Assembly: GCA_041486365.1 (NCBI GenBank)
Contig: JBGPLH010000209.1
Coordinates: forward strand, 1 to 6,087
Length of the DNA: 6,087 nt
From: JBGPLH01 sp041486365 [NCBI: Thermodesulfobacteriota bacterium]
Lineage (GTDB): Bacteria; JAUYMQ01
Direction of reading: 5' to 3'
Shown: positions 3,999-6,087 of the stretch, piece by piece
Layout of the letters: every line of letters begins with the position of its first letter
Position numbering within the stretch: position 1 is the first letter of the stretch
Position numbers and translations under genes: made by a program
The notes under the pieces: model-generated
What the model was told of the DNA's origin: nothing
Seen by the model: only the letters and a program-made list of their open reading frames with translations
Databases searched by the model: none

Positions 3999-5243
3999 AT
4001 GGCCGTCTTCGTCTACAAGGGCTTCGACGCCGCGGGCCGGACCACCGGCGGGATCGTCGACGCGGACTCCGCCCGGCTCGCGCGTGTGAAGCTGCGCAAG
4101 TCCGGGATCTTCCCCACCGACCTCTCGGAGGAGCGGCAGCAGGCCGCCGTCCGCGGAGGCGCGGAGGGAATCCTCCGCCGCCAGTTCTCGTTCCGCCAGG
4201 TCTTCGGCCGCGTCACGGAGAGCGACAAGTCGATCCTCACCCGCCAGCTCGCCACGCTGATCGGCGCCGGGATCCCGGTCGTGGACGCGCTCACCGCGTT
4301 GATCGACCAGGTGGAGAACCCCCGGATCCAGGTCGCCGTGGGGCAGGTGCGCCAGCGCGTGAACGAGGGCTCGTCGCTGGCCGACGCGATGGCCCAGCAC
4401 CCGAAGGTCTTCTCCTCGCTCTACGTGAACATGATCCGCGCGGGCGAGGCGGGTGGCGCCCTCGAGGTGGTGCTCGAGCGACTCGCCGACTACCTCGAGA
4501 GCCAGGTCCGGCTCCGCAACCGCGTCTCGGCGGCCATGGTCTACCCGATGGTGATGAGCGGCATGGCGGTGCTCTTCATCGGTGTACTGGTGACCTTCGT
4601 CGTGCCGAAGCTCACGGAGATCTTCAAGAGCATCAACCAGCCGCTCCCGCTCGCCACGATCCTCCTCATCAAGCTCTCGGACTTCATGAAGGTCTGGTGG
4701 TGGGCGGTGATCGCCGCGGGGACCGGCGCCTGGTTCGGTTTCCGGCGCTGGAAATCGAGCGAGAAGGGCCGGCCCACCTGGGACCGCTTCATCCTGGGCG
4801 TCCCGCTCGTCGGGAAGCTCGCGCGGACGGTCGCCGTGGCGCGCTTCTCGAAGACACTTGCCACGCTGCTCTCCAGCGGCATCCCGCTGATCCGCTCCCT
4901 GGAGATCGTGCGCAACATCATGGACAACGCGATCCTCGCGACCGCGCTCGACCAGGCGCGTGAGAGCATCACGGAGGGCGCCAGCATCGCCCAGCCGCTG
5001 CGGGCGAGCGGGCAGTTCCCGCCGATGCTGATCCACATGATCGCGATCGGCGAGAAGTCCGGCGAGCTGGAGGCGATGCTCGGCAAGGTGGCGGAGGCTT
5101 ACGACAACGAGGTCGAGACGACCATCGCCAAGATGACCTCCTGGCTGGAGCCGGTGATGATCCTCGTGATGGCCACCGTGGTGGGCGCGATCATCATCTC
5201 GATCCTGATCCCGATCTTCAACATCAACCAGGTGATTGCATGA
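3999..5243 (+). CDS. gspF: T2SS inner-membrane platform protein GspF
   Basis: Polytopic inner-membrane protein that links the GspE ATPase to pseudopilus assembly. 414 residues, close to the usual 400-406. It has the family's opening (MAVFVYKGFDAAGR), then two T2SSF domains (about 78-200 and 281-402). The first contains LATLIGAGIPVVDAL and NMIRAGEAGGALE; the second repeats this pattern as LATLLSSGIPLIRSL and HMIAIGEKSGELE. Three membrane segments are visible at about 178-203, 230-250 (with three Trp in a row) and 384-406. The ATG at 3999 has only a weak GCGGG just upstream, held in a potential hairpin, so translation may depend on ribosomes finishing gspE 39 bases earlier. The stop overlaps an ATG at 5240 (ATGA). 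Nothing is truncated or missing. Confidence 0.97.
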   Translation: MAVFVYKGFDAAGRTTGGIVDADSARLARVKLRKSGIFPTDLSEERQQAAVRGGAEGILRRQFSFRQVFGRVTESDKSILTRQLATLIGAGIPVVDALTALIDQVENPRIQVAVGQVRQRVNEGSSLADAMAQHPKVFSSLYVNMIRAGEAGGALEVVLERLADYLESQVRLRNRVSAAMVYPMVMSGMAVLFIGVLVTFVVPKLTEIFKSINQPLPLATILLIKLSDFMKVWWWAVIAAGTGAWFGFRRWKSSEKGRPTWDRFILGVPLVGKLARTVAVARFSKTLATLLSSGIPLIRSLEIVRNIMDNAILATALDQARESITEGASIAQPLRASGQFPPMLIHMIAIGEKSGELEAMLGKVAEAYDNEVETTIAKMTSWLEPVMILVMATVVGAIIISILIPIFNINQVIA

Positions 5244-5271
5244 GGCAAGCAGCCGCGTCCGGCCCTGTCCA

Positions 5272-5276
5272 AGAGG
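5272..5276 (+). promoter_or_regulatory. Ribosome binding site favouring the gspG start at 5282
   Basis: AGAGG lies 5 bases before the ATG at 5282. The competing ATG at 5240 overlaps the gspF stop and has no comparable purine-rich site. The same AGAGG pentamer precedes gspE. This favours 5282, which also leaves a 38-base gap like those between the other genes. Confidence 0.6.
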
Positions 5277-5281
5277 TTCCC

Positions 5282-5869
5282 ATGAACGCTCCCCCCGCCC
5301 TCCTCAACGAGTTCGCCGCGGCTCTTTCGGCTCGGGGGGAGGGCGAGGCTCCTGCCGAGCCTACGTCGCGATGGGCTCGCGAGGACGCTCGCCCTCCCAG
5401 AAATATCCGGAGCGATCACGGCTTCACGCTCATCGAAATCATGGTCGTGGTGGTGATCATCGGCCTCCTGCTCACGGTCGTCGCCTCCAACGTGACGAAG
5501 AGGCTCCAGACGGCCGAGCACGTGAAGTCACAGGCCGACATCAAGGGCCTGGAGACCGCCGTCGAGACCTACCGCCTCGACAACGGCCTTTACCCCACCA
5601 CGGAGCAGGGGCTCGAGGCGCTCGTCCGCAAGCCGGCCTCGGAGCCGATCCCACAGAGCTGGAACGGCCCTTACCTGAAGGGGCAGTCGGGCGTGCCGAA
5701 GGACCGATGGGGGAACGACTACCTGTACCTCCAGCCGGGCGCCCACAACCCCGACTCATACGATGTCTGGACCCGCGGGCAGGATGGCCAGGACGGCGGC
5801 GAAGGACCCAACGGCGACGTCGGCAACTGGGCCCCCGAGCCCGAGACCCAGCAGACGGCGGCGCCTTGA
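5282..5869 (+). CDS. gspG: Major pseudopilin GspG with an abnormally long leader
   Basis: Main subunit of the periplasmic pseudopilus. The prepilin peptidase site is G|FTLIE, with the -1 Gly at 5420-5422, Phe+1 at 5423 and Glu+5 at 5435. A hydrophobic helix follows (MVVVVIIGLLLTVVAS). The mature part is 148 residues and has the GspG hallmarks: YRLDNGLYPTTEQGLEALV, RWGNDYLYLQPG and the C-terminal calcium-site region RGQDGQDGGEGPNGDVGNW. The last dozen residues after the Trp are a small Pro/Gln-rich tail. The leader is 47 residues from the chosen ATG, or 61 from the alternative ATG at 5240 (ATGA overlap with gspF); GspG leaders usually have about 6-10. About 21 leader codons come from a palindromic repeat (5337-5398). 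I chose 5282 for its AGAGG site. There is no in-frame start closer to the cleavage site. The call is firm; the start is not. Confidence 0.95.
   Translation: MNAPPALLNEFAAALSARGEGEAPAEPTSRWAREDARPPRNIRSDHGFTLIEIMVVVVIIGLLLTVVASNVTKRLQTAEHVKSQADIKGLETAVETYRLDNGLYPTTEQGLEALVRKPASEPIPQSWNGPYLKGQSGVPKDRWGNDYLYLQPGAHNPDSYDVWTRGQDGQDGGEGPNGDVGNWAPEPETQQTAAP
5337..5398 (+). repeat. REP-like imperfect palindrome inside the gspG leader
   Basis: Two 25-base arms, 5337-5361 and 5374-5398, are inverted copies matching at 21 of 25 positions around a 12-base spacer. The spacer holds the 6-base palindrome TCGCGA (5366-5371). The four mismatches form two doublets, where one arm reads GC and the inverted copy of the other reads CG. 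The arms are very GC-rich (GGGAGGGCGAG at the outer end). The element is translated in the gspG frame as about 21 Gly/Glu/Ala/Pro/Arg-rich codons. Its size and form suit a repetitive extragenic palindrome or miniature mobile element. I recall similar palindromes from Planctomycetota genomes, but copy number here cannot be judged from one window. Confidence 0.7.
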
Positions 5870-5875
5870 CACGGC

Positions 5876-5955
5876 ACGGCTTCACGCTCCCGCGGGCCCA
5901 GAGCGAAGTGAGGGGCCGGTCTAACAATGACAGGGACAGGTACGGTTTCACGCTC
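5876..5955 (+). repeat. In-frame direct repeat of the prepilin cleavage-site coding sequence
   Basis: Bases 5876-5889 and 5942-5955 match at 13 of 14 positions, 66 bases (22 codons) apart and in the same frame; both encode GFTL. The upstream copy, extended to 5875-5889, is identical over 15 bases to the gspG cleavage-site region at 5417-5431. The downstream copy is the functional one, since only it continues into Ile-Glu and a hydrophobic helix. The upstream copy continues into Pro-Arg. It could be a remnant of a former gspH start or a recombination product with gspG. Confidence 0.6.
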
Positions 5956-6087
5956 ATCGAGATCATGGTCGTCCTTCTGCTGATCGGCCTTATCTTCAGC
6001 TTCGTCCTCCCCCAGTTCCGCGCCCGGACCGACGCCGATCTCAAGCGCTCCTCGATCCGGCTGGCGGCCACCATCCAGAACATCTTC
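5908..6087 (+). CDS. gspH: Minor pseudopilin GspH (3' partial)
   Basis: Minor pseudopilin, expected near the tip of the pseudopilus with GspI, J and K. 60 residues are visible from the GTG at 5908: a 13-residue Arg/Asp/Asn-rich leader, the cleavage site G|FTLIE (-1 Gly at 5944-5946, Glu+5 present), a hydrophobic helix (IMVVLLLIGLIFSFVLP) and the start of the globular part, including SSIRLAATIQNIF, before the window ends. GTG 5908 has AGAG 4 bases upstream and leaves a 38-base gap after gspG. The alternative is TTG 5866, which overlaps the gspG stop and gives a 27-residue leader that begins MTRHGFTL, itself like a prepilin start. The ATG at 5927 is out of frame. H is assigned from position after gspG and helix style; another minor pseudopilin (GspI) is possible, since the diagnostic C-terminus is missing. 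Confidence 0.82.
   Translation, partial: MRGRSNNDRDRYGFTLIEIMVVLLLIGLIFSFVLPQFRARTDADLKRSSIRLAATIQNIF

Follow-up and report, generated by a model that had tools for sequence, protein, structure and literature searches.

What is a strong palindrome doing inside the translated leader of a pseudopilin gene? The question is raised by gspG, which encodes the major pseudopilin of a type II secretion system (T2SS) and lies at positions 5282–5869 (+ strand, stop codon included) of a 6,087-nt stretch of DNA from a Thermodesulfobacteriota bacterium, hereafter the window. The leaders of type 4 pilins are described as hydrophilic, variable in length, facing the cytoplasm and cut off by the prepilin peptidase (PMC10191384).

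The palindrome and its place in gspG

The protein read from 5282 carries both features of a GspG pseudopilin, namely the N-methylation motif (N_methyl, 3.3e-8) and the T2SSG domain (2.6e-36) of Pfam. The upstream gene (3999–5243, + strand) was named gspF from gene order and from its relatives. The gspG open reading frame opens at 5240, with an ATGA overlap with gspF, and we chose 5282 as the start on the grounds that the upstream context (AGAGGTTC..ATG) agrees with that of the closest relative. Between 5282 and the cleavage site there is no in-frame ATG, GTG or TTG, so that, given standard starts, the repeat must be translated. The leader (5282–5422, + strand), whose cleavage is predicted from the motif, thus has 47 residues, counting the Gly before FTLIE, and contains the translated repeat EGEAPAEPTSRWAREDARPP.

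The initial annotation had placed a 62-base imperfect palindrome with 25-base arms between the gspG start and the cleavage site, with its codons open in the gspG frame. An inverted-repeat search recovered it at identical coordinates, with arms of 25 nt each (5337–5361 and 5374–5398) that are complementary at 21 of 25 positions (84%) and lie 12 nt apart, and it is situated within the open frame 5240–5869, ahead of GFTLIE. The intervening 12 nt (5362–5373) form the loop of the large palindrome. The palindrome begins 55 nt downstream of the first base of the 5282 ATG, and 21 nt separate its end from the Gly codon of GFTLIE. The open frame across it is unsurprising because neither unit contains a stop codon in any of the six frames, and five of the six are open across the full 62 nt.

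This palindrome, with a score of 47, is the sole hairpin of the window that scores at least 45. When the window was shuffled locally, 3 of 200 sequences reached the same score, and among 500 synonymously recoded gspG sequences one did so within 5322–5421. Across 32 loci (340,044 nt), 17 hairpins score at least 45, whereas two locally shuffled versions had 3 and 0. The predicted RNA fold is −48.7 kcal/mol (z −4.6), and none of 200 dinucleotide shuffles is equally low. However, the fold is only ∼1.4 sd below that of 200 synonymous recodings (−42.0, sd 4.7), indicating that the strength of the stem is partly due to a GC-rich peptide. An Rfam search of the window gave no match, and neither did a search with the palindrome in plasmid and phage collections. 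The weightiest argument for a real palindrome is its match to a repeat family found elsewhere.

The leader of the next gene in the window, gspH (5866–5958), has a peculiarity of its own. The prepilin coding start occurs twice in it, as CACGGCTTCACGCTC at 5875 and as TACGGTTTCACGCTC at 5941, and the doubled start reads HGFTLPRAQSEVRGRSNNDRDRYGFTLIE, perhaps the product of a 66-nt duplication or insertion. This leader, with its second FTL-like stretch, folds no better than shuffles, and a 16-base piece taken from it is absent from the 31 genomes searched.

A dispersed family of REP units

A more fitting description of the palindrome is a pair of REP units placed face to face. Unit 1 (5337–5361, + strand) consists of the tag GGGAG, an outer stem GGC/GCC, a ga/ga internal loop, an inner stem GGC/GCC and the loop TCCT, and unit 2 (5374–5398, − strand) is inverted and has the same layout with the inner stem GCG/CGC. 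Each arm folds by itself (GGGAG-GGC-ga-NNN-TCCT-NNN-ga-GCC), and the four arm-to-arm mismatches amount to two compensatory changes of inner-stem pairs, from GGC/GCC on the left to GCG/CGC on the right. A REPIN consists of two inverted REP units separated by a short distance, and here two inverted units do make one palindrome.

Leaving the inner stem free in the search pattern revealed AGC/GCT and CGC/GCG variants in viral contigs. A GCG/CGC inner stem also occurs in the viral contigs L191 and L192, there with a different tag; the GGGAG-tagged GCG/CGC pattern had no match in viral contigs, and these two copies were retrieved with a shorter pattern. The unpaired tag is GGGAG in the window units and in most copies, GGTAG once (L042) and GGTGG twice (L191 and L192, whose ORFs have no Pfam match).

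Covariation was measured in two sets of units. The chosen set (20 rows, 16 distinct) omits six rows with a changed outer stem (L106, which has one too, was retained), as well as the poor matches L060, L062 and L063. In this set, 97.9% of 96 cells are paired versus 85.7% in shuffles, and the covariation score is higher than in any of 500 shuffles or in the slid controls; 13 of the 500 shuffles have as many pairs with changes on both sides. The second set (20 rows, 10 distinct) comprises 18 of the 21 free-stem matches plus the two window units, with L060, L062 and L063 restored but without L044, L048 and L051, which repeat L041 and L050. Retaining the poor matches gave 90.0% of paired cells versus 78.8% in shuffles, with no shuffle out of 500 reaching the covariation score and 18 having as many pairs with changes on both sides. 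In L061, one inner pair is broken. L060, L062 and L063 pair poorly and are without the GGGAG tag, and we judged them to be chance matches. The outer stem, whose bases are fixed by the searches that supplied most rows, shows no covariation. Rows without its GGC/GCC pair poorly and were likewise attributed to chance, with the possible exception of L111. A hairpin of 20–40 nt with complementary stem changes, as expected of a REP, was therefore found for the inner stem only.

The initial annotation had proposed an inserted palindromic repeat. That the repeat belongs to a dispersed family is supported by one genome, a Gemmataceae bin (G027) in which the exact unit pattern with a free inner stem has 8 matches (0 for the reversed control), and by viral contigs, in which the pattern is present as well. 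The other 30 of the 31 genomes have no exact match. These include G001, the genome of the closest relative, where nine weak matches were found, the best with 19 of 20 bases but without a full unit, and where the dimer pattern is absent. The tags point outward in all 13 dimers (the window and 12 others), with gaps of 9–70 nt, in a scan of 26 loci plus the window that allowed up to three mismatches and omitted L044, L051 and L057 (repeats or overlaps) together with L060, L062, L063, L105, L107, L109 and L110.

Some copies elsewhere also lie in open frames. In G027, one unit is in frame in a RecD-like helicase ORF (L058) at about residue 250, with the helicase domain beginning at 292. In one viral contig, three related ORFs (7892–8749 and 11828–13303 in L042, 3258–4673 in L065) carry an in-frame dimer near the N-terminus. 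They have no Pfam match, their N-terminal regions align across the repeat, and a tblastn search of a repeat-carrying viral ORF against phages gave no match. An analysis of reading-frame preference among the inserted copies was dropped because the choice of ORF is too uncertain in GC-rich DNA.

A RAYT partner was also sought, as had been suggested. Y1_Tnp has 47 matches in 18 of the 31 genomes, and in 34 of these 47 neighbourhoods, including every one of the six in G027 and two of the three in G001, no unit with up to four mismatches lies beside it. Eight hits at five mismatches occur near Y1_Tnp, one of them with a paired inner stem (L087); all were judged to be chance. The window element thus resembles a REPIN with its RAYT in having paired inverted units, and differs in that no RAYT gene is linked here to the window unit.

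REP families of the GTAG type are described as having intragenic copies, some of them translated and some in DNA repair genes, whereas the translation of others, located at the beginning of genes, is doubtful (Di Nocera et al. 2013, PMC3733652). As far as that description goes, the window element shares with them a short imperfect tagged hairpin, complementary stem subfamilies, head-to-head dimers and translated copies; however, its tag is mostly GGGAG instead of GTAG. Searched by terms, the main text of the same paper yielded no pilin or leader case. The palindromic elements of Rickettsia, described as ∼150 bp long and translated in frame inside genes (PMC10969869), are comparable as in-frame translated palindromes; by the same description, the window element is set apart by its length of 62 bp, its two REP units and its location in a leader. 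Four stretches of the repeat letters had no match in the papers searched, the translated motif EAPAEP retrieved unrelated papers only, and a limited literature search found no earlier report of a palindromic insertion in a prepilin leader. Intragenic REPs and in-frame palindromic elements are already known, and what is of interest here is the placement in a leader.

Palindromic repeats in other gsp operons

In a Manganitrophaceae operon (L006, 4890–9740), seven palindromic hairpins occupy consecutive junctions of gsp operon genes; they differ from the window unit. At gspH, gspI and gspJ of this operon, no start codon lies between the hairpin and the cleavage motif, which means that at least the 3' part of the hairpin lies within the translated frame. 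At gspF and gspG, a start codon is present downstream of the hairpin; inspection showed the same arrangement at two later junctions, ahead of an ORF without Pfam match and of a PilM/GspL-like gene. The repeat is therefore inside the frame at 3 of 4 junctions that precede genes with a prepilin motif versus 0 of 3 others, a contrast that is suggestive of a leader bias, with numbers far too few for a test.

Among the repeats of this operon, copy number rests on the one in the gspH leader, which is found at at least 40 places in its genome, G007 (73 matches on two strands, merged; 40 of 105 candidates scored). With a crossing defined by an upstream start and 20 further codons beyond the repeat, no open frame runs across 35 of these 40 places. 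The five that are crossed are the gspH leader itself, a MacB-like ORF, an aldehyde dehydrogenase, in which the copy is N-terminal and closely followed by a start codon, and two ORFs that have no Pfam match. The MacB-like ORF (L154, 3–2600) carries the palindrome in frame at about residue 434, perhaps in a linker, or perhaps between two genes that share one frame.

Similar cases were seen at other loci. The repeat of the gspH leader of L010 has 14 matches in G011, counting itself, and one of them is inside the gspJ leader; the hairpin in the gspG leader of L010 is not multi-copy in this genome, with itself and one partial match. In a close Nitrospirae pair whose GspF proteins share 384 of 419 aligned residues, a GTAG-type palindrome fills the gspF-gspG junction of L008 (6288–6315), and the corresponding site of L009 (∼5843) is empty. 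The general pattern of the L008 palindrome occurs at five places in G009, one of them letter-identical and probably the copy itself. Translation of the L008 copy is uncertain because a start codon follows the repeat. The earlier argument that a cleaved leader could tolerate an insertion is strengthened by independent cases, namely the gspH, gspI and gspJ leaders of Manganitrophaceae and the filled and empty junctions of L008 and L009.

Persistence of the insert in the leader

We consider it likely that the palindrome is a REPIN-like, head-to-head REP pair that is tolerated in the cleaved leader of gspG. The pair would have inserted at the gspF-gspG junction and joined the gspG reading frame, possibly mobilised in trans by a Y1 transposase of the RAYT type. 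It could have persisted since its units are stop-free, the peptide it encodes is hydrophilic and it lies in a prepilin leader, which would remain in the cytoplasm until the prepilin peptidase removes it, making the insert nearly neutral. This reading needs nothing beyond the known properties of leaders.

An alternative is that the stem has been retained for an action on the mRNA, where it would shield or separate the gspG segment and raise GspG over GspF. The REP between malE and malF of E. coli is a precedent for such shielding or separation of mRNA segments, a strong stem is predicted on the gspG transcript, other lineages have repeats at gspF-gspG or gspG-gspH junctions, and the L008/L009 pair provides a filled and an empty junction. 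However, ribosomes would open a stem that lies within translated sequence, and in 22 of 24 relatives the 250 nt ahead of the gspG-like motif contain no hairpin that scores at least 45. Moreover, the hairpins of L006 are also found before gspF, after gspJ and before the PilM/GspL-like gene; their presence at seven junctions, prepilin or not, weakens a special role at gspF/gspG, and repeats at non-prepilin junctions of one operon indicate that tolerance suffices without regulation. We therefore regard an mRNA role as improbable.

It is still less probable that the leader peptide has a function of its own and is conserved at the protein level, the palindrome being incidental. Counted from the nearest start, the window leader, at 47 residues, is longer than that of any of the 24 relatives (5–41, median 15.5) in which a search within 800 nt of gspF found a gspG-like motif; this search found none in 7 of 31 loci. 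Long leaders are also present in L010 (41 residues) and in L029 (40 residues), the locus of the closest GspF relative (72% identity; G001, labelled Deltaproteobacteria), which would fit a functional peptide. However, the leaders of the window and of L029 have no clear similarity, and the insert matches a DNA repeat known from several contexts. L029 is not an empty site, its leader being an unrelated sequence, and neither an empty site nor a target-site duplication was found for the window insertion. The gspG gene of L029 has an in-frame TAG (5072–5074) soon after the prepilin motif, which may reflect a pseudogene or a sequencing error. Finally, an inverted repeat arising by chance in GC-rich coding DNA, as the few window shuffles that reach its score would allow, is hardly credible and is already contradicted by the dispersal of the exact left unit, with covariation, in another genome and in viral contigs.

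The tolerated REP pair would provide a concrete reason for the survival of REPs inside genes, namely that the part of the host peptide that carries them is cut off once it has been translated. A broader and more doubtful possibility is that pseudopilin leaders are a recurrent safe site for unrelated palindromes across phyla, where the insert is cut off, and that stems at the gspF-gspG-gspH junctions are perhaps recruited for dosage. If leaders are recurrent refuges of this kind, they would offer natural filled and empty sites in which the effects of REP stems on the expression of neighbouring genes could be tested.
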